DNA of 64,000 nt from a virus. The stretch spans positions 310,001-374,000 of IMG/VR virus record IMGVR_UViG_3300017991_000048; one strand, given 5' to 3'. The translations under genes were made by a program, and so were the position numbers. The notes below the pieces were generated by a model. That model worked only from the letters and a program-made list of their open reading frames with translations. It did no database searches and was not told the DNA's origin. Positions 21,738-58,298 of the stretch are shown here, one piece after another (within the stretch, counting starts at the first letter, position 1; every line of letters begins with the position of its first letter).

Positions 21738-22253
21738 CTACAGGCGGATAGACTCCGGGGGTAAGGTAGCTACAAGCGGGTCAGGCCGAATCCGGAGAAA
21801 CCTGAACCATATCCTTTTCCACCAGGGGAGAGTAGGCATTGTCTCAGACCCCAACGCCCAAAGAAGCCCGTAAACTTCCGCCATATTCTCAGCCACCCAG
21901 TCAAGATCTCTTATCTGTTGGTAGAACTCTTCGCTTATTGACTCCTGTGTGATCTTCAGATTGAAATGAGGGCAGCGTTGGGCATCAATCGGCTCTTCGC
22001 AGATATCCCCATTCCATTCCGTAGGGTCGGTTGAGTTCAGTAGACACAAACCAATAATAGGCGAATCCGGGCTTGAGTTCCGGTTGTAATTCTCGTTTGG
22101 CTCTCCAGCGACCTCTTTTCTAGTATCTAAGGACTGCCGGTGGTTATGTACGCAATTTCGAGGTAAACGAGCCCCTGCCTCAGAAACTCTACGATCCAAC
22201 TCTCTTGTCAGTAAGAATCGAATCCTGTCCTGAATCTCGGCCTCAGACCGCAT
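21738..22253 (-). CDS. Hypothetical protein
   Basis: A 171-residue mixed protein between the split SbcC C-terminal half and the primase cluster. It overlaps the SbcC-like gene by 11 bases. It has scattered Cys and His (CVHNH, CEEP, RCPHF) that could bind a metal, but no clear ribbon. Function unknown. Confidence 0.7.
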   Translation of the reverse strand: MRSEAEIQDRIRFLLTRELDRRVSEAGARLPRNCVHNHRQSLDTRKEVAGEPNENYNRNSSPDSPIIGLCLLNSTDPTEWNGDICEEPIDAQRCPHFNLKITQESISEEFYQQIRDLDWVAENMAEVYGLLWALGSETMPTLPWWKRIWFRFLRIRPDPLVATLPPESIRL

Positions 22254-22917
22254 TTACCACCTCCTGCTGTAGCTGTAAGTATCGCATTCCGTCCTCAGTT
22301 AAAACCTCAGATCCCCTGTACCCAACCACAGCGTGGTCAAGAAAAGCTGGCTTATGCGTCACGAGCAAAATCTCTATTCCGGTTTTTTCGGCCAACTGCC
22401 TCAAAAACAAGCCCGTTCGATCAATATACTCATCAGACACGGCTCCCAACGTCTCATCCAGAGCCAATAATGGCCATTTCTTCAAGCGCCGTAAGGCCAA
22501 CACTCTCAAAATTAAGGAAGCAATACTCGCTGGACCGCCGCCAAACGCTTCTAATGGATGCCCCTTGATCTCGACTCGCTGATCGTCTTGCCGAAAATAA
22601 AAATCTATGGCCAACTTGTTATACCTTTGAGAAATTTCAGCCTCAAATGACAGGCTCTGATCCGTGAAAATGGTACGCAATCCCTCTGTAATTACACCTT
22701 CAATGGACCTAACGTGATCCAAAACCAGTTGGTCCATCAGAGCCCGGAACAGTTCACCGACTTTCGACAAAATATCTAACTGGTGGGTGAGATCCTTTAC
22801 CTCTTGTTCACGTGAGGTCAGATCCCGCTGCATCTGGTCCCGCAACGCCTGGAGCCCAGACACCGTTTCCCGGACCGCTTTTAGTCGATCCCCGGCGTGA
22901 AGCGTGTCACAGTGCAT
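22243..22917 (-). CDS. SbcC/Rad50 C-terminal ATPase half (split gene)
   Basis: A 224-residue protein holding only the C-terminal part of an SMC/SbcC ATPase. It has a coiled-coil arm (residues about 10-75), the ABC signature FGGGPASIASLIL (about 130), Walker B LLALDETLGAV (about 150) and the switch His in LLVTHKPAF. Walker A is absent; it is supplied by the product of 26311-27525, which in turn lacks these motifs. Together they would make one Rad50-like lobe pair working with the SbcD-like nuclease (25336-26310). The first codons overlap the clamp gene by 37 bases, so the true start may lie further in. Confidence 0.82.
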   Translation of the reverse strand: MHCDTLHAGDRLKAVRETVSGLQALRDQMQRDLTSREQEVKDLTHQLDILSKVGELFRALMDQLVLDHVRSIEGVITEGLRTIFTDQSLSFEAEISQRYNKLAIDFYFRQDDQRVEIKGHPLEAFGGGPASIASLILRVLALRRLKKWPLLALDETLGAVSDEYIDRTGLFLRQLAEKTGIEILLVTHKPAFLDHAVVGYRGSEVLTEDGMRYLQLQQEVVNAV

Positions 22918-24137
22918 TTGTGTACCCCTTCCGCCACATTAGTAGCTCCGCTCCCGCCAGCAATTGTACCGTCATCGCTCACAAGAAACTCGTCAATGGT
23001 CCTGAAAAAGAACAGATCCTTGGTTCGGTCCTTCCCGTCTTTAGGCAACACCACAATCCTGAACTCTACCCATTCACCTTTCGCATTATCGAACAGGTCC
23101 AGCATATGATTGACATTGACAGGGGCTGTCAACTCTTCCTCAATCTTGGTTTCCACCTCTTCAGCGGTTACCGGAAGGCTTTTCGTGACACTCCCGTTAT
23201 CAGCGCAAGAAAACCAGAAGTCCTTGGATGACGGATTAAAATGAAGCAGGACTTTCTTCTTGTCCTTGTGTAGTCCAGCCCTCATAAATCGCAATTGATG
23301 GTGCATTCTCCCACAGTCCACCTTTGCAATGATAGGGTCGTCCAGTGAGTAATAAGAGAACTTCTCGTAGGTATCATGGTGGTGTGGCCACCCTATTACG
23401 TCATTGTTCTCATTTATGACATAAGTACGCTCTTCCGTCTTGTAAACACGCAAAGCGCCGGTCGATTGAGACATGAAAGACTCAAGCAAAGACAAATGCT
23501 GTGCCGGGGCAGCCAGCCCCTGTCCCTTAAAAACATCACTCTGGAAGTAAAATGCCTCAGTTCCGTTTGACGAAAACAGATAGCCGTTTGCCTTTTTCAC
23601 TTTAGGGTCATCGTCTCCAAAAATCTGTACGGTTTTATAAAACTCATGCGTAACCGTATCATTCGGCTTGGCCATAAAGGACTTGGCCATTCCCAGAGCC
23701 AACTGTAAGGTCTTAATATTATAGGATTTCGGCTCCTGAGAATCGACAGCCTGTTGGATCTTCTTTTCAAACAGATTCATCGAACGAGGGTCAAATGACA
23801 CACGATCAGTTTCCCCAGGTCCAAATGTATACTTCACCTTAAATGACTCGCCTTCAGACGTGGCTGTAAAGGTGACTGGCCCGGATACGTACTCAAATGC
23901 TCCTATATAGTCAGCGGGGTACATGAAGGAGCCTTCGCCCTCTACATCAGAAATTGGAAAGCTGGAACGGACCTCATGGGCTCCGTTTGTAGCATATACT
24001 TGACACGCCTTACCATCACCACCGACTACAAATAGGTATCCCCGCTCTTGTTCCGCTGTGATCTGCGGACTAATGATAGAGGACACTCTGAGTGCTTTAT
24101 TTAATTGTTCAGCGTCAACTGTAAATTTGATTTCCAT
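22881..24137 (-). CDS. dnaN: Sliding clamp (DNA polymerase III beta-like)
   Basis: A 418-residue ring-forming processivity clamp from the ATG at 24137, chosen because GAGGA lies just upstream. It opens MEIKFTVDAEQLNKAL, typical of DnaN, with the three-domain pattern visible as repeated strand-rich blocks. Typical DnaN is near 370 residues; the excess is in the middle and in a C-terminal tail (VAEGVHKCTV). The clamp loader subunits are encoded at 18686, 38052 and 39023. No polymerase III alpha subunit is in this window. Confidence 0.8.
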   Translation of the reverse strand: MEIKFTVDAEQLNKALRVSSIISPQITAEQERGYLFVVGGDGKACQVYATNGAHEVRSSFPISDVEGEGSFMYPADYIGAFEYVSGPVTFTATSEGESFKVKYTFGPGETDRVSFDPRSMNLFEKKIQQAVDSQEPKSYNIKTLQLALGMAKSFMAKPNDTVTHEFYKTVQIFGDDDPKVKKANGYLFSSNGTEAFYFQSDVFKGQGLAAPAQHLSLLESFMSQSTGALRVYKTEERTYVINENNDVIGWPHHHDTYEKFSYYSLDDPIIAKVDCGRMHHQLRFMRAGLHKDKKKVLLHFNPSSKDFWFSCADNGSVTKSLPVTAEEVETKIEEELTAPVNVNHMLDLFDNAKGEWVEFRIVVLPKDGKDRTKDLFFFRTIDEFLVSDDGTIAGGSGATNVAEGVHKCTVTRFTPGID

Positions 24138-24144
24138 TTGATCC

Positions 24145-24423
24145 TCATTTCTGTTGAAACTCTGCAAGAGCGTTTTCAACTTCAGTCAGCGATTGATCCA
24201 ACTTCTCGATCATAGCCTCTAACTCTTCTTTGGCTTGATCTCGCTCCTGAGCAATCTTCTTTGGGTCGTAACCCGCTTCTTTGATCTCCTGAACAATGGT
24301 AGCTAATTCCTCTTTTTTAGCTTCCAACTGCCCGGACAAAGTAGCCTTTTTCTGAACTACCGCATTATACCTTTGTTGCAGTTCGTCGATCTTTTCCTTA
24401 ATCTCATCAGACATTGGTATCAC
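24145..24423 (-). CDS. Small coiled-coil protein
   Basis: A 92-residue protein that is almost entirely one coiled coil (heptads from residue 5 to 90, many E/K/Q). It lies immediately upstream of the clamp gene. No domain recognised; it could be an accessory of the nuclease or clamp genes around it. Confidence 0.7.
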   Translation of the reverse strand: MIPMSDEIKEKIDELQQRYNAVVQKKATLSGQLEAKKEELATIVQEIKEAGYDPKKIAQERDQAKEELEAMIEKLDQSLTEVENALAEFQQK

Positions 24424-24439
24424 ACCTCTTTGTTGCCAA

Positions 24440-25336
24440 TTAAAAGCTGATTTCCCCTTCCTCTACACCACGTTTTCGGTCCTCGACAATCTGTGCTTTA
24501 GTATTATCGGACAAAGCTTTCGAGCCTTCTGAGCAGTGCTCCCGATAGCCGCACAATGAGCAACTTGAACCGGGGTTGGCCCAAAATATGGCGTTTGGCT
24601 TTCCCTTCCGAAGCTCTTTCTTGGCTGACTCAATTTCTTGGATTGTTTCCAATATAGCGTTCAAAAGAGCCTCTAGCTGGCTCTTCGTTACTCCGCTCCA
24701 ATCCATGCTCTCTTCAGGCTCAAACCGCCAATATAAAAACCCTAACTGGTCAGGGATCACCCCGTGCCTCAACCAATATAACATGGCGTACCAACGCAAC
24801 TGGCGGCTATCTGTGTACTTGTCACGCCACCTGGACCCTTTGCCGTCTACAATCACCAAATCCCCATGGGGCCGAACCCGTCTCATAATAAAGTCCGCAC
24901 GACCTCCAATTATATGGCCTTTCACTTTCTCATCTAAGACAACCTCTGCCTCTGCATCAATCCCACCAAGCCGGTGGTACTTTATGCTCCGCAGTCCTCT
25001 GGGGATAGTCTCACGGATTTCTTGCTCGACCTCATCTAAAGACCGGCTACCGGGCTTAAGGTTTGGCTCGTTCCAATCAAAAAACCCGCCCTTCTCCGTC
25101 TCCCGGACCGTGACTCTCGTCATTACCGGACGCACAAGGTCCATCAATCTCATCAGTATCAGATCAGCTTTCCACATCTCATCTACGTAAAACTGTTCAA
25201 AAATCTTCCCCACCACATCCCCGTAAAGCATATGGACGCAATTGCTCTTGGACGGTATCAGCTTCTGAATATACCTGTAGTAATAAGCCCTTGGGCAATT
25301 CTTATAGACAGTAAAACCAGAATAAGACAGGTACAT
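24440..25336 (-). CDS. PD-(D/E)XK nuclease, Cas4/AddB-like with Fe-S cysteines
   Basis: A 298-residue RecB-family nuclease. The N-terminal SGFTVYKNCPRAYYYRY gives the first cysteine. The catalytic block has GGRADFI and LVIVDGKGSRW (D...DxK, residues about 142-165), followed by the RQLRWYAMLYW helix. The C-terminal SSCSLCGYREHC gives three more cysteines, so a four-Cys Fe-S cluster as in Cas4 and AddB is likely. No CRISPR array or other cas genes are present, so it is a phage recombination or repair exonuclease. Start ATG overlaps the SbcD-like stop by 1 base. Confidence 0.85.
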   Translation of the reverse strand: MYLSYSGFTVYKNCPRAYYYRYIQKLIPSKSNCVHMLYGDVVGKIFEQFYVDEMWKADLILMRLMDLVRPVMTRVTVRETEKGGFFDWNEPNLKPGSRSLDEVEQEIRETIPRGLRSIKYHRLGGIDAEAEVVLDEKVKGHIIGGRADFIMRRVRPHGDLVIVDGKGSRWRDKYTDSRQLRWYAMLYWLRHGVIPDQLGFLYWRFEPEESMDWSGVTKSQLEALLNAILETIQEIESAKKELRKGKPNAIFWANPGSSCSLCGYREHCSEGSKALSDNTKAQIVEDRKRGVEEGEISF

Positions 25337-26310
25337 CAGGCTTCCCCACGGGCTCGCTTCAAATATGTCAAAGCCGTTTCTCTGACTTCGTGAGCGAAAT
25401 CCAATATTCGAATATTATCTTCGATCGTTGCTGTTGAGTCGAATGTCGCATCTTCTTGTAACTTCTCGACAAACTCATCGATATTACGATTTTCGGTTTC
25501 TATCCGTTCCTTCTTTTCAAAATCAAACACTTCTTCAGCAGGGGCTACATTTAAAGGAAGCAGTTCGATCCCAATATTAGAGCCAAACTCTAATAAAGCC
25601 ACCTGTGGGGTGCGAGTAATATTTTCATGCACCAGAGCGCCCCGCGAGACAGCGCCTTGATTCACAAAATGCTTGCCATCAATATCAACAACACCTTGAT
25701 CTTGGTGCCAGTGCCCGAAACACCAAACGTCGGGGCCATTGGGAGTTACAAGATCAGAATACCTAAACACAGGCTCCTTGAAAAACCCTTCGACATTTGT
25801 TGGAGGTGATCCGGACGCCAAAGCATGAACAACCGCTACCAAATAATCGTCTTCCGGTTGCTTCTGAATCTCCAGGAGGTCATTTATGGTACGCCTCAAA
25901 CTATAAGGCACCCCGACAACACGTACTTGTAAACCATCTTTCTGAAAAACCTCTTCCCGTAGTTGGCGAAAGACCCTGTAGACATACAAAACCCCAATCG
26001 GTTGCTGAACAACACTGTCAAGATTATTGTGTTTAATGTCGTGGTTACCTTCCACGTGGAAAACCGGACACTCATATTTGCTATGTATCAATCCGGTACG
26101 ATACATGGAAGCGTGGCTATTCTTACTCGCGCTCTTGATATGAAAATAGTCACCACCATCTAACACTGCATCAACTTTATGTTCGCTTGCCAGTTGTCCG
26201 ATCTGTTCCAGGTCAGACCAGATCTCAGCCGGGTAGTCGCCTTTCCAGGAGTCCGGGCTTCTATCAGAGACATGCACATCAGTGCGAAATATGAAAGCTA
26301 CTCTAGACAA
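25336..26310 (-). CDS. sbcD: SbcD/Mre11-like calcineurin-type nuclease
   Basis: A 324-residue metallophosphoesterase with the five standard motifs: RTDVHVSD (DxH), DGGDYF (GD), VEGNHD (GNHD), VVHAL (H) and FGHWHQ (GHxH). This is the nuclease partner of SbcC/Rad50, processing DNA ends and hairpins. It sits directly between the N-terminal SbcC half (26311-27525) and the PD-(D/E)XK nuclease, with no gap. The last 60 residues are helical and could bind the Rad50 coiled coil. Confidence 0.88.
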   Translation of the reverse strand: MSRVAFIFRTDVHVSDRSPDSWKGDYPAEIWSDLEQIGQLASEHKVDAVLDGGDYFHIKSASKNSHASMYRTGLIHSKYECPVFHVEGNHDIKHNNLDSVVQQPIGVLYVYRVFRQLREEVFQKDGLQVRVVGVPYSLRRTINDLLEIQKQPEDDYLVAVVHALASGSPPTNVEGFFKEPVFRYSDLVTPNGPDVWCFGHWHQDQGVVDIDGKHFVNQGAVSRGALVHENITRTPQVALLEFGSNIGIELLPLNVAPAEEVFDFEKKERIETENRNIDEFVEKLQEDATFDSTATIEDNIRILDFAHEVRETALTYLKRARGEA

Positions 26311-27525
26311 TTAATGATCATCCAATGTTAAGGGCCGATTACATTCGCGGCACAGCATCCCCAAACTATCAAATTCCTGTAATATCTCGGCCTCTTCTTG
26401 AAGCGTTCCCTTCAACTCCTGTTTTAACTGTAACAATGCTTGGGACAACTCATAGGCTTGGGTCGCCCATAAAACAATACGAAGATAAACATCTCTCGTC
26501 TCTTCCAGCGGACCGAACTCCGGAAGAGAAAGCAGTAAGAGCTTTTGAATCTTATCCAAAAAGGATGCGAGCACATCAACCTTGGACGCCCATTGAACTA
26601 GCTTTTCATATAACACCCCTGAGGATGAAAACGATTCCATTTCCGGGATTTCAATAGCTTCCAACCCTTTCAAAGCCAAGACCGCCTGGGCCTTGCCGTG
26701 AAGTTCAGCGACTAGCCGCTCCAAAGTTGTAAACTTAGAATCCTCTTCCTTCAAAGGGCTGATGTCAGGTACTTTTATCTGTTCGACCGCTTTTAAATCT
26801 CTAAGCTGTTGGCCAACGCTAAAAATAGCCTCTATAAATTGCTCCAACTGCTCCGCTTTCTCCTTAATAGCCTCTACCTGCTGGTAAACTTCCTCGACGT
26901 CTGATGCCTGACCCGCAACGCCATCCAACCCTTCATACCCCTCTAATGCTTCCGAGAGGTCTTCAATATCCTTCTCCCGAACCTTACGGGTGGCTCTGGC
27001 CTCTTTACGGTCTTTTTCGGCTAAACGTATGGCAACATTAATCTGATCCAACTTCGCCACGTCAGATAAAATATCAGCCGCTACCGTGCCGGGTTTATCT
27101 AAGATAAAAATAGGCTTGAACTGATCCGAAACCTGTAAAAGCCCTTTTTCTTTTTCCCCTAACTTAACGGGCGAGAACCCCGGAGTCAAAAAGTCTGGTG
27201 TGCCTCTCCCCACTACCGTGTGCTCTGTGCCGTTGTGTACATACCTGTTGACGGCATCCCCCTTCTCCCAAAGGAGATCTAAACCCTCCGCCTTAATATG
27301 AACAGAACAAAAGCACTTACAAGACTTGGCCCCTTTGATTACACGAGGGCAACTAATACTGTGTCTTACATAGTTATCAGCAGGGGAGCCCGTAAGAGCC
27401 GCTTTAATTGCTCTTATTACTGCGCTCTTGCCGATGTTGCTTCTACCGGCCAAAGCCGAAAAGCCATCCACATCAATAACTTGATGGGTTATAGATTGGA
27501 AGTTTTTAATTTCGACCCGGACCAC
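26311..27525 (-). CDS. SbcC/Rad50 N-terminal ATPase half ending at zinc hook (split gene)
   Basis: A 404-residue protein with Walker A GRSNIGKSAVI (about residues 28-35) and an N-terminal RecF/SbcC-like start (VEIKNFQSITHQVIDVDGF). A coiled-coil arm follows from about 165 to 390, ending in CRECNRPLTLDDH, where CxxC is the zinc hook of Rad50. The return coiled coil, signature motif and Walker B are missing and are found in a separate gene at 22243-22917. A CxxxxCxxC-like stretch near residue 65 (CPRVIKGAKSCKCFC) is an extra possible metal site. Confidence 0.84.
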   Translation of the reverse strand: MVRVEIKNFQSITHQVIDVDGFSALAGRSNIGKSAVIRAIKAALTGSPADNYVRHSISCPRVIKGAKSCKCFCSVHIKAEGLDLLWEKGDAVNRYVHNGTEHTVVGRGTPDFLTPGFSPVKLGEKEKGLLQVSDQFKPIFILDKPGTVAADILSDVAKLDQINVAIRLAEKDRKEARATRKVREKDIEDLSEALEGYEGLDGVAGQASDVEEVYQQVEAIKEKAEQLEQFIEAIFSVGQQLRDLKAVEQIKVPDISPLKEEDSKFTTLERLVAELHGKAQAVLALKGLEAIEIPEMESFSSSGVLYEKLVQWASKVDVLASFLDKIQKLLLLSLPEFGPLEETRDVYLRIVLWATQAYELSQALLQLKQELKGTLQEEAEILQEFDSLGMLCRECNRPLTLDDH

Positions 27526-51277: not shown

Positions 51278-51577
51278 TCAGCCCCACAGTTTTCCTTCAT
51301 TGTCAACAATGTAAGTTTCCCGCTTCCACGGGCCAGTTTTATCTCGTAACGGATCGCACATATTCAAAACTTCTTCACCCTCCGCACTGCCTCTTTCCCA
51401 CCAGCAAACGTGCGTTTCCACTTTATCATTGCCTTCAAAGTAGTAATCAGGCGGCGCGACTTCGATACGCAGCAGTTCATCAGACACGATCGAAATCCTA
51501 ATCAATGCCTGATGCCGCCTCGACCACTGAAAGCCCAGACGAGCACCGCGCAGCATTGCTCCAAATCGCGTTGTCAT
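51278..51577 (-). CDS. Hypothetical protein in the Ubl/JAB cluster
   Basis: A 99-residue protein, beta-rich with several Trp (VCWWERGSAEGEE). Its ATG overlaps the Ubl-candidate stop (ATGA). It has no Cys in an E2-like HPN/Cys context, so I do not call it an E2. Function unknown. Confidence 0.66.
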   Translation of the reverse strand: MTTRFGAMLRGARLGFQWSRRHQALIRISIVSDELLRIEVAPPDYYFEGNDKVETHVCWWERGSAEGEEVLNMCDPLRDKTGPWKRETYIVDNEGKLWG

Positions 51578-51849
51578 ATAGAACCAAAAGGCGTTTTAGG
51601 GCGTAACTGGATTAAATTATAAGGACGCCCCTCAGTCGGGGAGAATCGGTCCACAACAAAGTCAGACAGATCTGCCTGCTGTGCCGGGATTCCAGGAATG
51701 CTTCCGCCAGTGATAGCCTCAGAAACCCAATTTTTCACGTCTTCGTCAGACGCAGCAAAAAGAACCGGGTCCTCTAAATCTCCGTTGCAACCGCCAAAAG
51801 TGACATTCACGCGAGCATCGTTTTCATTGATTACGTTGTCTTCAGGCAT
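51574..51849 (-). CDS. Candidate ubiquitin-like beta-grasp protein
   Basis: A 91-residue protein with a beta-grasp-like order of elements: strand VNVTFGGCNG, strand DPVLFAASDE, helix VKNWVSEAITGG, then FVVDRFSP and YNLIQLRP strands. The C-terminus TPFGSI would expose Gly after removal of two residues. It overlaps the JAB protease gene by 8 bases. The fold call is by eye and by neighbourhood, so moderate only. Confidence 0.5.
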   Translation of the reverse strand: MPEDNVINENDARVNVTFGGCNGDLEDPVLFAASDEDVKNWVSEAITGGSIPGIPAQQADLSDFVVDRFSPTEGRPYNLIQLRPKTPFGSI

Positions 51850-52276
51850 TTTGTACCTCCGTTAATTGATACGACTCATCTCTGAGCCTTTGAAGCCAAA
51901 CCGGTTCGTTAGAATACAAACGCGGTTGCCCTCCCTCCATAGCGACCCCTCTGACAATTTGAGGGAGAGTGTAATAATCTAATTTTTCAGGCCCGATCCA
52001 TGTCACAGTCACCAATGTGTCAGAACTTGTAATCCACCAAGTAAGTCGTTTACCCAGTGCCGCCTCAATCGCGGCGAAAGTTGTCAGATCTTCATACGAC
52101 GGCCCTGGCTCTCCGCTCCCCGGATGGCTATGAGCAAAACCCGCTACTATCTCCCGGTTCCCCCATATCACATCCCACAGTCTCCGACTGTCAGGCAGAT
52201 ACGCTATACTACGATCATCGGGTATGTGCCAGTAAATAGGCAATCCCATTTCGTCAATTACAACACCAGCTTCCAT
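51842..52276 (-). CDS. JAB/MPN+ metalloprotease
   Basis: A 144-residue JAMM protease: GFAHSHPGSGEPGPSYEDL holds the HxHP, Ser and Asp zinc site (about residues 52-66), with an upstream catalytic Glu in NREIVAG. Such enzymes remove ubiquitin-like proteins or mature their C-termini; in tailed phages JAB domains also occur in tail-assembly proteins, but usually fused to NlpC/P60, which is absent here. Confidence 0.85.
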   Translation of the reverse strand: MEAGVVIDEMGLPIYWHIPDDRSIAYLPDSRRLWDVIWGNREIVAGFAHSHPGSGEPGPSYEDLTTFAAIEAALGKRLTWWITSSDTLVTVTWIGPEKLDYYTLPQIVRGVAMEGGQPRLYSNEPVWLQRLRDESYQLTEVQNA

Positions 52277-52567
52277 TTAGCTCTCCACATCATAGCCAAG
52301 CACCTCTCCGATGTCTGTGAAGTACTTGACCATCTTCGCTTCCAAGTCTTCGACCGCTTCTTTGAACGTACCCCCGACGCCTTCTACCCCATGGTAAAAA
52401 GCTCTAAAACCTTCATTTGCTCCCCTTTCCCTTATCATCCATGCCTTTCCTACGAACATATACCCGTGCTCTATGTCTATCATCCACTTATTCGGCTCGT
52501 AAGTGGCTTTCCACACATTCCGTTTCTTCCCGCCAAACATTACAGTCTTTGGAATATATTTAGACAT
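52277..52567 (-). CDS. Hypothetical protein
   Basis: A 96-residue protein with mixed strands and a C-terminal helix (TFKEAVEDLEAKMVKYF). It directly follows the 309-residue gene with an 8-base overlap and abuts the JAB gene. No family recognised. Confidence 0.68.
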   Translation of the reverse strand: MSKYIPKTVMFGGKKRNVWKATYEPNKWMIDIEHGYMFVGKAWMIRERGANEGFRAFYHGVEGVGGTFKEAVEDLEAKMVKYFTDIGEVLGYDVES

Positions 52568-53489
52568 GCCTAAACACCACCAATTCGCCTAGAGCCAGAG
52601 CTTCCAAGATCACAGAAGGTAAGCTTTCGAGAGTCAAAAGCGTGTCACCTTTTTCACCCGTATCGTGATCTGTTAGACATACGCCAGCATCGATAATCCT
52701 AAGATTTTTGTCACAGACACACTCGTATCTCTCCCGGTTCAATCGGAACTTGACTATCTTTTCATCCTGAAGCCCCGGCCTACAATCCAGGAATTCGGCT
52801 CCGCCGACCGCCAAAGCTGCTCTGGCCGCGTCCTCAAAAGACTCTTTAGCCACCTCTCTCCTGGTAGCCCCATCACCGAGATTTTTAATGATTTCAAGCC
52901 TTTTGGCCTCTCGTTGCCGAGCTTCCTCTTCTTGCTTACGCCTCTCTTTTAACTCCTGTCTACGCCGCTCCGCTTCCTTACGCTGCCAAATCTCCATACG
53001 GAACGCCGCGTCCAAAGCGGGGCAAACTCCCTTGATTTCAGCCACGGATTCCTGATCATCTAAGAATGCCGTTTGCACCTCAAATTCCGGTCCCAGAGGC
53101 ATCTCCTGCTGGATATAAATCAGGGGTCCGTCCTCACAGATCCTGCCAGCAGAAACCAATACAAACCGGTCCAGGCCCGGTTCTATCAACCGGACTTGCT
53201 CCGAATGATCCACGATATTCTTAGGGTCTGGATCAACTCTGGCGTCCACCGAAACCAACCGGTTACCGACCAAATAACCTGTGGTCTTACCCCGGAGCCT
53301 CTCTGGTTCCGGTTCAGCCGGTTTCACGTAGTAAGCCTTACGCCCGTTCAGTGTGAACATGCTCCATCCATGCTCCGGAGGATAACCGCCCTCAATGGAC
53401 CATCGACGTGGGCCTGACCGGAGAGATCTACCACCGACCCAAGGCAAAACCTGAGTTTCCTTATCCTGTAGTAGACCTCTCCAAGCCAT
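52560..53489 (-). CDS. Hypothetical protein with charged coiled coil
   Basis: A 309-residue protein: beta-rich N-terminal half, a very charged coiled coil at about 168-198 (RRQELKERRKQEEEARQ) and a C-terminal alpha/beta region. GGTGTAATA precedes the ATG but also overlaps the Ro60-like gene end region. No domain recognised; conserved context with JAB/Ubl not established. Confidence 0.7.
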   Translation of the reverse strand: MAWRGLLQDKETQVLPWVGGRSLRSGPRRWSIEGGYPPEHGWSMFTLNGRKAYYVKPAEPEPERLRGKTTGYLVGNRLVSVDARVDPDPKNIVDHSEQVRLIEPGLDRFVLVSAGRICEDGPLIYIQQEMPLGPEFEVQTAFLDDQESVAEIKGVCPALDAAFRMEIWQRKEAERRRQELKERRKQEEEARQREAKRLEIIKNLGDGATRREVAKESFEDAARAALAVGGAEFLDCRPGLQDEKIVKFRLNRERYECVCDKNLRIIDAGVCLTDHDTGEKGDTLLTLESLPSVILEALALGELVVFRHV

Positions 53490-53504
53490 TGATATTACAC
53501 CATT

Positions 53505-55376
53505 TTACGCCGCCCAAGCAGGCTTCTCAAGCAGCTTTGTGTTGACGATTGTGTCCACTAGAGACACGCGAGGGGTTGCAGTCCTGGAAGCTTTGCCCAC
53601 AGGGGTAGCAGCAACCAAAGCACGGATTGTGCGGGGAATAGCGTAAGGATCAGCGAAGATCTTTTCGTCGATCATGAAGCACGGAATTCCCAAAGCAGCC
53701 GCCGTATCGGTGACCGCACGGTACTCACGACCGCCCCAGTTTGTCTCCACATACAGGAATCCAAAAGCCATCGGACTGAGGCCAGACTGATGAACAGCGT
53801 GATCAAACTCACGGGCCTGCTCATCTCCCACAAAGATGAAAAGCACGTCTTCATCCTCTTTGGGCCTGTGGTGCTGAAGCACTCGAACCCCAGAACCGTA
53901 ATCAGTGCCGCCGCCAGCCCGGAAGCCACGGAAAGCCTGTTCAACACCAGTTGCGGAATGGTGCTTGAGTGTTACCTCTCGCCCCGCCGTGTTGAAAACG
54001 GAAATATGAATCTGCTCAGCCGGGAAACCCTGCAAAAACTGTGCGAGATACTTCTTGGCCTGCTCAATGGCGTTATCCATCGAAGCAGAGATGTCCACCA
54101 TGAAGTAAACACGGATACCCTTGGTGACCTCCTCAACTGCCTTCTGAACTGCCGTGTCAGCCGCCTCAGACAATTTCTCCTGGGTTTCCTTGGACTTAAC
54201 TCGCTGTGCGATGTTAGCAGCCCTGGTATCCTCAGCCGCCTTGACCGCCTTTTCCCATCGGAGACAGATATCCTTGACCTCAAGAAGACCAAGCTCTTCC
54301 AACGTAGGGGTAGCAATGATCAGATCCTTGTCAGAAAGTGACCCGGCCTCGATTGCAGCCGCCATGATCGCTCTTGTTACGCCAATCTCCTTGGGCAAAA
54401 GGCCCACGATCCGCTTGTAGTTGGGCTTGTCCTGGACGACCTTCTCACAGATCTGTTCCTCTGTAAGACCATCCCAAGACTCAGCCGCCGCTACATCCTG
54501 ACCGATAGCCATGGTTCGATGCCCCTCCTTGGACTGGACTTGCCGCCAACGGAGAGTCTCAAAGAACTTGGGGCTGTTCGGCTTGTAGCCTATTGCACGA
54601 GCCAGTTCCATGACAGTGCGCCGAAAGCCAGCCTTGACCAGACCCTCAAGCATCTTGGGATTCTCTTCCCTGTACCGGAGCCACTTGTCCACCGCTTTGG
54701 GCCAACGCCCCAGAAACGGCTTACGGGCAGACTTGCCGAAACCGAGTTCACGGTTGATCTCCGCAACCTCAGGCAGACGGAGCACATTGTAAACCCTCAA
54801 AAGTAGCTTGGGGTTGAAGCTGGCCTTGCCGTCGTTCTTGCTCTTGGCAGTAAGAAGGAACATGGCTTCGCCAACGTCCCGGTAGTCCTCATCGAAAAAG
54901 ACAACCTTATTGCCCTCTGTAACCGGGTCACCCTTACGGCACTGGACAAGCATGAACGCCGCCAGAATGGTCTTAAGATCTCTGTGATCTTGAGTGTAGG
55001 CGTAAGAGGCCCACTTCGCCGCAAACTCATTATCAAGGTTCCAGACCTCAACAATTTGCTTGTAGATCCAGGTCACGACCTCCGGGTAAAGACCGGCAGG
55101 CTGATAACGGCCAATAGTCTGAGTACCATCTTTGATACTCCCGTCGTCTTGCAGGACACCGAGTTTGACCTTGGTGCTCTTACGGCCAACCTTACGCAAT
55201 TCGTAAACGACCTTAGTACCGTCCTCATCAGCATGAGTCACAGGCGACCACCTTGTACCCACGACCGATCCAGGGTCAGTTACCACAACTCCAGGTCGAT
55301 TGTGGACAGCGTGATCCGAGTATGAAAGGACCGTCTGTAATATTCTCTCTGCCGGTCCGAGATTCTCGTTTTCCAT
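53505..55376 (-). CDS. Ro60/TROVE-like RNA-binding protein with VWA domain
   Basis: A 623-residue protein. Residues about 80-380 are helical repeats (HEAT-like TROVE ring, with WASYAYTQDHRDLKTILAAFML and similar). Residues 425-600 are a VWA domain with MIDAS MVDISASMD, GGGTDYGSG and FVGDEQ. This is the Ro60 layout; Ro60 orthologues that bind Y RNAs are known from bacteria and some phages. It would bind misfolded or structured RNAs and could shield phage tRNA-like RNAs. It starts ATG at 55376, upstream of which lie two GGTGTA motifs. Confidence 0.85.
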   Translation of the reverse strand: MENENLGPAERILQTVLSYSDHAVHNRPGVVVTDPGSVVGTRWSPVTHADEDGTKVVYELRKVGRKSTKVKLGVLQDDGSIKDGTQTIGRYQPAGLYPEVVTWIYKQIVEVWNLDNEFAAKWASYAYTQDHRDLKTILAAFMLVQCRKGDPVTEGNKVVFFDEDYRDVGEAMFLLTAKSKNDGKASFNPKLLLRVYNVLRLPEVAEINRELGFGKSARKPFLGRWPKAVDKWLRYREENPKMLEGLVKAGFRRTVMELARAIGYKPNSPKFFETLRWRQVQSKEGHRTMAIGQDVAAAESWDGLTEEQICEKVVQDKPNYKRIVGLLPKEIGVTRAIMAAAIEAGSLSDKDLIIATPTLEELGLLEVKDICLRWEKAVKAAEDTRAANIAQRVKSKETQEKLSEAADTAVQKAVEEVTKGIRVYFMVDISASMDNAIEQAKKYLAQFLQGFPAEQIHISVFNTAGREVTLKHHSATGVEQAFRGFRAGGGTDYGSGVRVLQHHRPKEDEDVLFIFVGDEQAREFDHAVHQSGLSPMAFGFLYVETNWGGREYRAVTDTAAALGIPCFMIDEKIFADPYAIPRTIRALVAATPVGKASRTATPRVSLVDTIVNTKLLEKPAWAA

Positions 55377-55515
55377 TTTACTATCCAGTCTACCTACCGA
55401 ACTAGGGGCAGGCTCCTATTGATGTACTATTACACCGAACACTACGATGCAAGAGTTATTTACTCCTACACCGAAAAAAGTTAAGTTCGTAAAGATTTAA
55501 TGAAAATTCCAAGGT
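55377..55515. promoter_or_regulatory. Divergent intergenic region with GGTGTA motifs
   Basis: About 140 bases between the Ro60-like gene (minus) and the plus-strand gene at 55516. On the minus strand CGGTGTA occurs twice (55431-55437 and 55467-55473), with TTGCAT upstream of the first. A plus-strand promoter must also lie here, but I do not see a clear one. Confidence 0.5.
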
Positions 55516-55818
55516 ATGACCAGTGCGGAAAAAGTAGTCGCTCGTTTCTTAGAGACGAACCCCGGACAGCTTTCTGACAGGCTGGCTTTTAAATACCAGC
55601 CCAAGGAATCTAAGAAATCCAAAGTGGATCGTCTCATGCGTCTCATAACCGACCAGACCGGCATCGGGCGCGGGGTTGCCAAGGATATAGCTGACGCGAT
55701 TATCCGTGGGCGAGATGTGCTCAGGCTGGCGATCCAGAAAGGGTGGCCCGTGGTCGAGGGCGCGATTGAGGGTCCGCGTGGTACATATCAATTGAATGAA
55801 GCCATGGCTGCGGTCTAG
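55516..55818 (+). CDS. Plus-strand hypothetical protein with KVVARF start
   Basis: A 100-residue basic protein read rightwards, ATG preceded by CCAAGG. It begins MTSAEKVVARFLETN, related to the RVAARF/Y starts of virion-region proteins. The middle is helical (DQTGIGRGVAKDIADAIIRG). One of only two convincing plus-strand genes; it may be expressed at a different time. Confidence 0.72.
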   Translation: MTSAEKVVARFLETNPGQLSDRLAFKYQPKESKKSKVDRLMRLITDQTGIGRGVAKDIADAIIRGRDVLRLAIQKGWPVVEGAIEGPRGTYQLNEAMAAV

Positions 55819-55827
55819 GAGAGACAT

Positions 55828-56025
55828 ATGGATCACAAGCGCTGGAAAACATCTGACATTGACAAAGACCAAATACGTCAAGACGTTGAAAGAGTCCTCA
55901 AGTATGGCACCGACGCTGAGGTCAATGCTTTATGCGAAGTTCTCATGGGCCTCAGATGTGGTTCCAAATGGTACCACGGCACTTGTGATCCTCAGTCTCA
56001 AACCTTCAAAACGGGTAAAAGCTAA
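55828..56025 (+). CDS. Plus-strand small hypothetical protein
   Basis: A 65-residue protein, ATG preceded by GGAGAG at a good distance. Helical and charged, with two C-terminal Cys (CGSKWYHGTC). It follows 55516-55818 by 9 bases and converges with the minus-strand gene ending at 56022, overlapping it by 4 bases. Confidence 0.68.
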   Translation: MDHKRWKTSDIDKDQIRQDVERVLKYGTDAEVNALCEVLMGLRCGSKWYHGTCDPQSQTFKTGKS

Positions 56026-56300
56026 GGCTTCATCCTTACGGTATCCCTCCTTTCCAGGCTCAACTCCGGTACAGCCCAGTCGAAATCAGGCAGAGTCTTT
56101 GCAGTCTGCCAACACCTGATCCGGTGATTCCTGAATTCGTAATAAAAATCAGGATCGTCAGTCCAATGCCCCATGCCAGACAAGACTGGCAACCCACACT
56201 CTTCGCAGCACATAAGACCAGCGTCCCGCGCCCTCATAGGGAACAGGTGCAACACTTCCGCATTGGTGTGTGCGTCTCGCCTGATCATTGTACTGTCCAA
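56022..56300 (-). CDS. Small hypothetical protein with CxxC
   Basis: A 92-residue protein with MCCEECGLPVLSG and later RCW; probably binds zinc weakly or in a dimer. Start MDSTMIRR is provisional. Function unknown. Confidence 0.66.
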   Translation of the reverse strand: MDSTMIRRDAHTNAEVLHLFPMRARDAGLMCCEECGLPVLSGMGHWTDDPDFYYEFRNHRIRCWQTAKTLPDFDWAVPELSLERRDTVRMKP

Positions 56301-56305
56301 AAGTC

Positions 56306-56485
56306 TTATGACTCATTCATGTCTCCGAAAAGCCTGTCCAGAATCCGTGCCAGCCATCGGCATTTATCACAAAGCCCTGTGAGGTTCAAATCACACATAA
56401 GCTGACAGTTGTTACACATCATCCTGGTGATCGGTTCTTTGATGACCGTCGTTCCTTGCTTACCTTCCATCCGTGTTATTTCCAT
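56306..56485 (-). CDS. Small zinc-knuckle protein
   Basis: A 59-residue protein with CNNC (near 24-27) and CDKC (near 39-42), a small four-Cys zinc site, then a helix WLARILDRLFG. The ATG is preceded by CGAGGTAGC. It lies just after the structured element at 56498-56618. Too short to be included in an automated frame list, but the zinc motif supports it. Confidence 0.65.
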   Translation of the reverse strand: MEITRMEGKQGTTVIKEPITRMMCNNCQLMCDLNLTGLCDKCRWLARILDRLFGDMNES

Positions 56486-56497
56486 AGCTACCTCGTT

Positions 56498-56618
56498 GAA
56501 CTTGAATCTGAGTTGTCAAAGCTGGTTGGTTTTGGAAGGGGCCTGATAACCCCGAAGGGCAAGCAATCGGTCCCTGAGATTGCTAGACTTGTAAGCTTTC
56601 ACATATAGACCCAAGTTC
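56498..56618 (-). ncRNA. Fourth copy of the P1/P2 RNA element
   Basis: P1 is an 11-bp helix (56608-56618 with 56498-56508) including two G-U pairs; P2 is 5 bp (56595-56599 with 56518-56522). TTACAAG follows P2 on the 5' side, and AACCA precedes P2' with AACTC just after, as in the other copies. The enclosed part is about 60 nt with three hairpins (AGCAATC/GATTGCT, CCC/GGG and GGGG/CCCC) and no tRNA. It begins 4 bases after tRNA-Arg in transcription order. Confidence 0.68.
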
Positions 56619-56621
56619 GGC

Positions 56622-56695
56622 GGGAGTGACAGGATTCGAACCCGCGTAAAACTGGCTTAGGAAACCAGCGCCCTTCCTAGCTAGGCCACACTCCC
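56622..56695 (-). tRNA. tRNA-Arg(CCU)
   Basis: Cloverleaf with acceptor GGGAGTG/CACTCCC, D-arm, anticodon stem CTGGT/GCCAG with loop TTCCTAA (anticodon CCT, AGG codon) and T-arm with TTCGAAT. CCA not encoded. The 5' part overlaps the end of the small gene 56681-56845. Confidence 0.9.
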
Positions 56696-56845
56696 TGAAA
56701 ACTTCCTTTCTATCTCGTCCCTCAATTCGTTCAATTCTTGGGCCAAACGTTCGCGTGTCTCATCCGTAACCAAGACAATCTTACGCACCCGACGTTTTCG
56801 TTGCTTATTCAATCTCCTACGTCTCTGTCCTTTGGTGCTTTTCAT
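56681..56845 (-). CDS. Small Arg/Lys-rich protein ending inside tRNA-Arg
   Basis: A 54-residue very basic protein (MKSTKGQRRRRLNKQRKRR then a helix). ATG at 56845 overlaps the TGA of the preceding HTH gene (ATGA); the TAG stop is read from tRNA-Arg sequence. Likely nucleic-acid-binding. Confidence 0.6.
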   Translation of the reverse strand: MKSTKGQRRRRLNKQRKRRVRKIVLVTDETRERLAQELNELRDEIERKFSGSVA

Positions 56846-57324
56846 CCCAATCCCTTAAATGTTTTGCGTTCACAATCTATCACAATGGCTTCTTCACGGG
56901 ACTCAACTTTCTTCTCCAGGCTCATCCAAAGAGCGCCGATAGCTCTGTTCTTCACGCTGTCTCTCATATGTTGTGCCGCAAGGACGGACGCCCGTAGTCT
57001 CTTTTCAGTTAGCCATTTCATCGAAGTTGCTTTCTCTCCAGCTTTTTCCCATCTGGTTACAGTAGCCGCCTTCACTGAACGTTCTTTCCCAAACTCCGTC
57101 AAAGTCATATCAAAAGAATGCCTGATGAATCGTACCTCATCGCCTGTGAGCCGTACTGGTTTATGCGCTAATTCATAAAGGGTCTTTTGTGTTAACACAT
57201 TGTAATTAATATTTGGGGTCCATGAGCCTCGCACCATAACCATTGGAACATTACGCAACACTACCGGGAATCCATACCCGTTATAAACAAACCTCCTTTG
57301 TACCTTCCTTTTCTGCCTCGTCAC
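56842..57324 (-). CDS. MqsA-like HTH transcription regulator
   Basis: A 160-residue protein. Residues about 60-105 (LTGDEVRFIRHSFDMTLTEFGKERSVKAATVTRWEKAGEKATSM) match the XRE-family HTH of MqsA/HigA antitoxins. The N-terminal zinc domain of MqsA is absent. No toxin partner is next to it, so a phage regulator is more likely than a toxin-antitoxin pair. The upstream gene ends with a 4-base overlap. Confidence 0.78.
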   Translation of the reverse strand: MTRQKRKVQRRFVYNGYGFPVVLRNVPMVMVRGSWTPNINYNVLTQKTLYELAHKPVRLTGDEVRFIRHSFDMTLTEFGKERSVKAATVTRWEKAGEKATSMKWLTEKRLRASVLAAQHMRDSVKNRAIGALWMSLEKKVESREEAIVIDCERKTFKGLG

Positions 57325-57521
57325 TTTTCCTCACGAAGAGTAATTGTCATCGATATTTGTTTCCCCTTGTAAATGGTCAGGTGCTTCTTTACGTCTCTCA
57401 CTAACTCATCGATCTGTTCATTATGTGACGCAAGCCGTGCTACATACTCTGATGGAGAAAGGGTTGAATCAGGGGTTAGTCCTTTTAAAACCATTGAAAA
57501 CTTCTGTGGTTGCATTCCCAT
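57321..57521 (-). CDS. Small coiled-coil protein
   Basis: A 66-residue protein with a helix in the middle (EYVARLASHNEQIDELVRDVKKHL) and a strand at the C-terminus. Overlaps the HTH gene by 4 bases, so possibly co-translated. Function unknown. Confidence 0.66.
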   Translation of the reverse strand: MGMQPQKFSMVLKGLTPDSTLSPSEYVARLASHNEQIDELVRDVKKHLTIYKGKQISMTITLREEK

Positions 57522-57538
57522 CGGTTCAAACCGTGCCT

Positions 57539-57850
57539 TTACTCACGAAAGATCTCAAACAAACCATTTCCGACTGTCTTCTTGTAGATCCTCAGCTTCT
57601 CTTTCTCACTCCACTCATACACATTATCTTCAGGTTCAAAGCTCAAAGAATCTGCTACTAGCGTTCTTTTTACGTGAGGCTTCCCTAGATCCTCCGTCAT
57701 CCTTTCATCTGTATCATAACGCCACTTGGTAGATACCTGAATGAGTTTGCCCTTTGAATATGTTACGCCGCCCCTTCCGCCACCGATCCGATATGTGTAA
57801 GTGGCTCCCTCTTTTAGCTTCTTATACTGGGCCGGTTGAATCTTCTTCAT
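57539..57850 (-). CDS. Hypothetical protein
   Basis: A 103-residue basic, strand-rich protein with a Gly-rich loop (YRIGGGRGGVTYSKGK) that could bind nucleic acid. No family recognised. Its start overlaps the end of the membrane protein gene by 29 bases. Confidence 0.68.
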   Translation of the reverse strand: MKKIQPAQYKKLKEGATYTYRIGGGRGGVTYSKGKLIQVSTKWRYDTDERMTEDLGKPHVKRTLVADSLSFEPEDNVYEWSEKEKLRIYKKTVGNGLFEIFRE

Positions 57851-58103
57851 GCACTTTCCCGATTTGCAACACTATCTTTGTCTTATGCTTTTCCAGTAAA
57901 CTCACAATCGCAGAAGCAAATAACACGCCTATCGCCGCAGGGATTATACAAGGTGCGAAAATTATCAGGGTCCCTCCAAGAAACACATCCTCAATAGTTA
58001 TTACTACACAACCCGTATTTCGATACATCAACACAGCCAATATAAAACACACCAACACCATTACGACATAAGAAAGTACGATATATGTGATTGCGTAATC
58101 CAT
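57822..58103 (-). CDS. Small membrane protein, two or more TM helices
   Basis: A 93-residue protein with two hydrophobic stretches at about residues 5-28 and 40-70 and a short polar tail. It would sit in the host inner membrane; phage proteins of this size can act in lysis, exclusion or membrane remodelling, but nothing here selects among them. Confidence 0.66.
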   Translation of the reverse strand: MDYAITYIVLSYVVMVLVCFILAVLMYRNTGCVVITIEDVFLGGTLIIFAPCIIPAAIGVLFASAIVSLLEKHKTKIVLQIGKVHEEDSTGPV

Positions 58104-58298
58104 TCAGTCTGCTTCGACAGGCTTACGCCCTGTAAGAATCTCTAACCTCTTCATCAATCTGCGTTTAGCCCTTCTCAAACTCCACAAGGAGTTGCTATTA
58201 AACATTTCCCTTTCCGTGCGACTTCCTGTCTCCGCTATCAAAAGCTTGTGCGGATCTCCCGCTATCCCGGCTGTTGATATGTGAAAAGATACTTTCAT
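58104..58298 (-). CDS. Small basic hypothetical protein
   Basis: A 64-residue protein with a basic helix (SLWSLRRAKRRLMKRLEIL). Its ATG overlaps the stop of the HNH gene by 4 bases. No domain recognised. Confidence 0.64.
   Translation of the reverse strand: MKVSFHISTAGIAGDPHKLLIAETGSRTEREMFNSNSLWSLRRAKRRLMKRLEILTGRKPVEAD

Follow-up and report, generated by a model that had tools for sequence, protein, structure and literature searches.

A conserved Rad50/SbcC variant parted at the zinc hook in phages and on Firmicutes chromosomes

The two halves of Rad50 at a phage locus

We analyzed a window of 64,000 bases (bases 310001-374000 of the 398071-base virus record IMGVR_UViG_3300017991_000048), in which an earlier note, made from the sequence alone, had proposed that the ATPase Rad50/SbcC is split into two genes at its zinc hook. 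The coordinates and order of the open reading frames (ORFs) at 22243-27525 were confirmed in the ORF list of the window, and the proposed split is supported by sequence, by predicted folds and by relatives. One gene encodes the N-lobe, a helical arm and a terminal CxxC (the N-half), another encodes a short coil and the C-lobe (the C-half), and the Mre11-type nuclease SbcD and a small coiled-coil protein (CC) are encoded between them. The features of the locus are as follows.

26311-27525, minus strand: Rad50 N-half, 404 amino acids (aa), with N-lobe, helical arm and C-terminal CxxC
27424-27447, minus strand: Walker A GRSNIGKS, residues 27-34 of the N-half
26353-27051, minus strand: helical arm of the N-half, residues 159-391, with ~41-residue repeats
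26341-26352, minus strand: zinc-hook motif CREC, C392 and C395 of the N-half
22243-22917, minus strand: Rad50 C-half, 224 aa, with short coil and C-lobe
22531-22545, minus strand: ABC signature FGGGP, residues 125-129 of the C-half
22453-22470, minus strand: Walker B LLALDE, D154 and E155 of the C-half
25336-26310, minus strand: SbcD/Mre11-type nuclease, 324 aa (PF00149, E 2e-11; PHROG 100, SbcD-like)
24145-24423, minus strand: CC, a 92-aa coiled coil of two helices flanking a GYDP turn (alignment, co-occurrence)
24440-25336, minus strand: PD-(D/E)XK exonuclease, 298 aa, a neighbor gene (PF12705, E 3e-19)
22881-24179, minus strand: sliding-clamp-like processivity factor, start likely ~24137 (PHROG 947, E 7e-5; conserved position)

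The N-half has its Q-loop at Q135 and ends in C392-x-x-C395 followed by NRPLTLDDH and the stop codon. The earlier note was therefore right about the Walker A and the CxxC hook of this gene but not about its end, as the stop comes nine residues past the hook. Across 15 N-halves, at identities down to 20%, Walker A residues G27, G32 and K33 do not vary, nor do Q135 and the two cysteines of the hook, which argues that these motifs are not due to chance, and both hook cysteines are kept while the remaining arm residues vary. By profile, the N-half matches PHROG 16465 ('exonuclease'), and the top solved structure for a profile built from the 15 N-halves is Rad50 (3aux, E 9e-8), with the hook structures of P. 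furiosus Rad50 also reached (6zff and 1l8d, E 0.003-0.02). An AF2 model of the N-half most closely resembles the N-segments of Rad50 (9a9j_A, Z 10.1; 1f2u_C, Z 9.8) and places the arm helices, at modest confidence, at residues 159-248, 256-283, 300-330, and 337-388. The arm is also periodic: autocorrelation peaks far above shuffled arms were found at lag 41 with its harmonic at 82 in phages and at lag 47 with its harmonic at 94 in cellular N-halves, and arm lengths step by the repeat unit in both groups (167, ~210, ~250, and ~290 residues in phages; ~248, 295, and 345 in cells). Within the N-lobe there is a Cys-rich insert, C.R...G.K.CKC (residues ~59-73, window 27307-27351), carried by N-halves of the jumbo-phage clade and missing from distant relatives, which is a possible second metal site.

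The C-half is predicted to start with a helix at residues 8-83, of which ~8-60 form the coil part, and continues through the signature and Walker B (..LALDE155) to an H-loop at TH188. Signature glycines G126-G128 are invariant in 13 sequences, as are the D and E of Walker B; the H-loop His is replaced by Gln in two relatives (L019 and L020). When aligned to LSGGE, the signature reads GGG where M. jannaschii Rad50 has SGG. By profile, the C-half matches PHROG 15167 ('ATPase'), Rad50 again ranks first among solved structures (3aux, E 7e-8), and a fair AF2 model (pLDDT 81) matches the Rad50 C-segment 1f2u_B best, with Z 13.6 and a root-mean-square deviation of 3.0 over 144 residues. The signature, Walker B and return coil that the earlier note assigned to this gene are thus all present, except that the return coil is short, ~55 aa vs ~230 aa for the outgoing arm of the N-half.

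The clamp, coiled-coil, PD-(D/E)XK, and SbcD genes said to lie between the halves were all identified there, and the SbcD gene follows the N-half gene stop to start. The clamp gene runs 37 bases into the C-half gene (window 22881-22917), most relatives have a similar overlap of 34-43 bases, and this recurrence suggests translational coupling of the two genes. Besides the clamp, the neighbors include genes for a RecA/UvsX-like recombinase, a RuvC-like resolvase, a primase, and a DnaX-like protein. Elsewhere in the window, thirteen tRNA genes lie at 45975-63597, with three for Gln, two for Ile, and two for Met. A DNA-level search of phage records gave no match to the locus.

The earlier note had named a full-length SbcC elsewhere in the genome as the sign that the halves are unrelated remnants. 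Neither a full-length SbcC nor, by PF13476 and PF02463 searches, another SbcC-type N-lobe gene was found in the 398-kb record, which is possibly incomplete. A weak PHROG 77 match at G000 228088-228681 falls in the coil region of a 1158-aa frame in which the PF13476/PF02463 N-lobe searches were blank, and neither half has the SbcC model, TIGR00618, among its NCBIfam matches.

Distribution of the split in phages and Firmicutes

We searched for viral relatives by scanning IMG/VR with single proteins and with alignments and by adding phage records, which yielded 93 viral loci with both halves, corresponding to 56 distinct N+C pairs. The earlier note had asked whether related phages keep the split, and they do: in none of the 56 distinct pairs do N and C share a reading frame, and SbcD is usually alongside. 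All but one of the 58 distinct viral N-halves terminate in CxxC, 6-24 residues before the C-terminus, and the 58th is truncated by the end of its contig. The main jumbo-phage clade has the order RuvC-RecA-N-SbcD-PDDEXK-CC-clamp-C-primase-DnaX, while in divergent phages the split is kept with other neighbors, as in N-SbcD-CC-clamp-C (L021, L022), N-CC-C-SbcD (L101), and N-..-CC-C-SbcD (Bacillus phage vB_BboS-125). SbcD adjoins the N-half in most phage relatives, and nearly every locus has it next to the halves or close by. The split does not stem from frameshifting or recoding, which is ruled out by the intervening genes and by the separate start of each half.

Several observations concern individual relatives. 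In vB_BboS-125, a stretch without annotated genes just past the C-half holds an SbcD homologue of 326 aa (L001:11238-12218; NC_048735.1 22423-23403). Some SbcD genes encode ~690-700 aa (L018:11350-13416; L031, 700 aa; L054, 698 aa), and a weak LAGLIDADG match within the L018 gene suggests an intein there. Apparent second N matches after dnaX in some loci (605-658 aa, E 0.0015-0.005) were rejected, their C-terminal sequence being unlike SbcC.

The same genes are found on Firmicutes chromosomes as an operon SbcD-N-CC-C, in many cases between recA and rny. Among 299 sampled genomes of one phylum, 48 have the C-half (at E 1e-20 or better), in almost every case as an independent frame of ~210-280 aa. 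Inspection of 20 contexts around cellular C-halves revealed N and C as separate genes near SbcD in every case and CC in 18, mostly directly between N and C; about half of the contexts adjoin recA or rny. Peptoniphilus asaccharolyticus (L116) has the order ftsK-rimO-pgsA-cinA-recA-SbcD-N-CC-C-rny, a core chromosomal locus, and only one recA in its genome. Each of the 27 cellular-type N-halves terminates in CxxC, which lies 17-28 residues before the C-terminus. The PD-(D/E)XK gene belongs to the jumbo-phage clade and does not interrupt the chromosomal operons. Thus, the split Rad50 is a widespread family that includes Firmicutes chromosomes and not the peculiarity of one phage.

These distributions bear directly upon whether the halves are merely remnants of an SbcC gene broken by inserted genes, with the ATPase lost. 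SbcC genes are normally in one piece, and other genes do separate the halves in jumbo phages, as such a history would predict. However, the catalytic and hook residues are invariant at ~20% identity, the break point is identical in 57/58 viral and 27/27 cellular-type N-halves, and the split persists in operons without an insert, so that we regard decay as extremely unlikely. Because the same split recurs in dozens of phages and in Firmicutes beside recA, it probably represents an old working design rather than a broken gene. It is also not standard SbcC, since that family was judged by a one-chain layout and a signature Ser and both are absent here; instead, the split Rad50 is a conserved, functional-looking variant of the Mre11-Rad50 (MR) complex.

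In a tree of C-halves, the window sequence falls in a clade that has good support and comprises 50 viral rows, while the cellular operons and several phages form a separate clade in which viral rows are nested among cellular rows. A viral contig (L101) and a Firmicutes assembly (L120) have identical C-halves. Being unrooted, the tree gives no direction.

One natural protein joins the components. In G052 (L152:4152-6254), a 700-aa fusion contains SbcD, the N-lobe, and the C-lobe, with no arm and no hook, and therefore ties these parts into one machine. A 1151-aa frame that appears AddB-like by eye is located beside the fusion gene. The fusion argues against a scheme in which the N-half and C-half serve two different machines, each with another ABC half and without a joint head. 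That scheme would accommodate Microbacterium phage Magritte (OR553905.1), whose C-half (389-907, annotated 'exonuclease') is far from an N-half-like gene (93841-94290, 'hypothetical protein'), and a viral locus (L096) with the halves in reversed order across a 7-kb gap. It is improbable nonetheless, given the constant linkage of N and C, the single SbcC-type N-lobe found in the phage record, and the failure to find full-length SbcC in carriers.

A probable multi-chain Mre11-Rad50 complex

Our interpretation, to which we assign a probability of about 85%, is that the locus encodes a phage multi-chain Mre11-Rad50 in which the N and C chains form one ATPase head and act with SbcD and probably CC. 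The best reading of its stoichiometry is SbcD2-N2-C2, probably with CC added, and only the N chain would bear the hook. The N-lobe from one gene and the C-lobe from the other would assemble into a single ABC ATPase head, and two such heads with two SbcD (Mre11) subunits would constitute an ATP-gated nuclease acting on DNA ends and hairpins. By analogy with the MR family, ATP would shut the two N-C heads together and gate the SbcD nuclease, and hydrolysis would open the heads for cutting. The arm would be carried mainly by the N chain, whose terminal CxxC is predicted to coordinate zinc jointly with that of another N chain, thereby linking the two arms, while the conserved CC (77-98 aa) would probably pair with part of the arm and replace the missing return coil. 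CC is probably the third chain of the split Rad50, which would make it a Rad50 of three pieces rather than the two of the earlier note. This assembly, its activity, the zinc binding, and the place of CC are inferred. The recombinase, resolvase, clamp, primase, and DnaX-like neighbors suggest a role in recombination-dependent replication, for which resected ends might be passed to the neighboring UvsX/RecA recombinase.

We also considered an SMC-like defense or counter-defense ATPase of the Lamassu LmuB, Gabija, or Septu kind in place of an end-processing Mre11-Rad50, as the N-half has weak matches to the PADLOC models Old, GajA, AriA, and LmuB. Those matches lie mostly within the P-loop stretch, the best ones included, whereas the fixed partner of the halves is the SbcD nuclease and their neighbors are recA, ruvC-like, clamp, and primase genes, or on chromosomes the recA-rny core locus. 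A defense function is accordingly very unlikely, although no search aimed specifically at defense partner genes was made.

Several points do weigh against a multi-chain Mre11-Rad50. The signature Ser carried by ABC ATPases is Gly throughout the C-halves, and the AF2 model of the N-half is weak (pLDDT 64.5). A standard antiparallel arm along the whole length is impossible, because the ~55 aa of return coil and ~85 aa in CC fall short of ~230. CC accompanies 50 of the 56 distinct viral pairs and was undetected in the other six. Evidence that the split Rad50 stands in for one-piece SbcC is likewise qualified. Full-length TIGR00618 SbcC was found in 0/16 carriers, of which G184 gave a partial match within a frame of 650 aa, and in 8/20 non-carriers of the same phylum, a difference (Fisher p 0.005) that is overstated by the clustering of carriers and non-carriers by descent and is indicative only. 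The model gave a match in 11 of the 14 control genomes and could thus overlook a divergent SbcC. Overall, the carrier Firmicutes appear to be without a one-piece SbcC.

A broader proposal, which we consider about as probable as its opposite, is that a three-chain Rad50 (N with the hook, CC, and C) is the only MR ATPase of many phages and of a sizeable share of anaerobic Firmicutes, where it would be expressed from the recA locus. Its arm would consist of 41/47-residue helical modules on one chain, the hook would tether ends with no need for an uninterrupted two-strand coiled coil, and a portion of the arm would be exchangeable as a separate subunit. The usual view of the MR complex is of a machine with two kinds of subunit, Rad50 being a single long chain. 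If the split Rad50 functions as proposed, its natural break at the hook would show that Rad50 does not require an unbroken chain there. Its pieces could be swapped, removed, or separately labeled, providing a ready system for testing the roles of hook and arm, and the armless SbcD-N-C fusion would be a natural minimal MR for comparison. In Firmicutes genomes where the halves escape one-piece models, the split Rad50 would also fill what looks like a lack of SbcC.

Comparison with known systems

We found no paper describing a split Rad50/SbcC, although our search reached few subscription journals and is weak evidence of absence. One study (PMC3175470) describes Mre11/Rad50 fusion proteins with SbcD and SbcC parts joined, does not use the word 'split', and reports that one SbcC P-loop NTPase segment was not observed in Anaerostipes and Bacillus phage 0305phi8-36; both cases would fit a separately encoded C-half. 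Another (PMC7824862), in the passages found, regards the presence of SbcC and SbcD in jumbo phages as practically universal and reports that DNA polymerase III is split there; these passages do not mention a split SbcC. The same split pair is already clustered as PHROG 16465 (N, 'exonuclease') and 15167 (C, 'ATPase') and deposited as vB_BboS-125 gp32 and gp35, but none of the sources found connects the two as parts of a single Rad50.

Among phages, T4 gp46/gp47 and the phage SbcCD of PHROG 77/100 are likewise MR complexes encoded near recombinase genes. PHROG 77 is a single long SbcC chain (967 positions); the N- and C-halves align to its opposite ends and leave positions ~640-860 without a counterpart. 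With SbcC/Rad50 and SbcD/Mre11 generally, the split system shares both lobe folds, Walker A and B, the Q-loop, the H-loop, the CxxC hook, and the SbcD partner gene. It differs in having its lobes on separate chains, the hook at the C-terminus of the N chain, a short return coil, a GGG instead of an SGG signature, and an arm of 41/47-residue repeats. The closest structural parallel for the head is the catalytic domain of P. furiosus Rad50 (1f2u, 1ii8, 9a9j), in which N and C segments likewise form one head from two chains. The head in 1f2u, built from two separately expressed segments, makes a natural two-chain head plausible. The P. furiosus protein was constructed in the laboratory and has almost no arm or none at all, whereas the phage split is natural and retains both arm and hook on its N chain.

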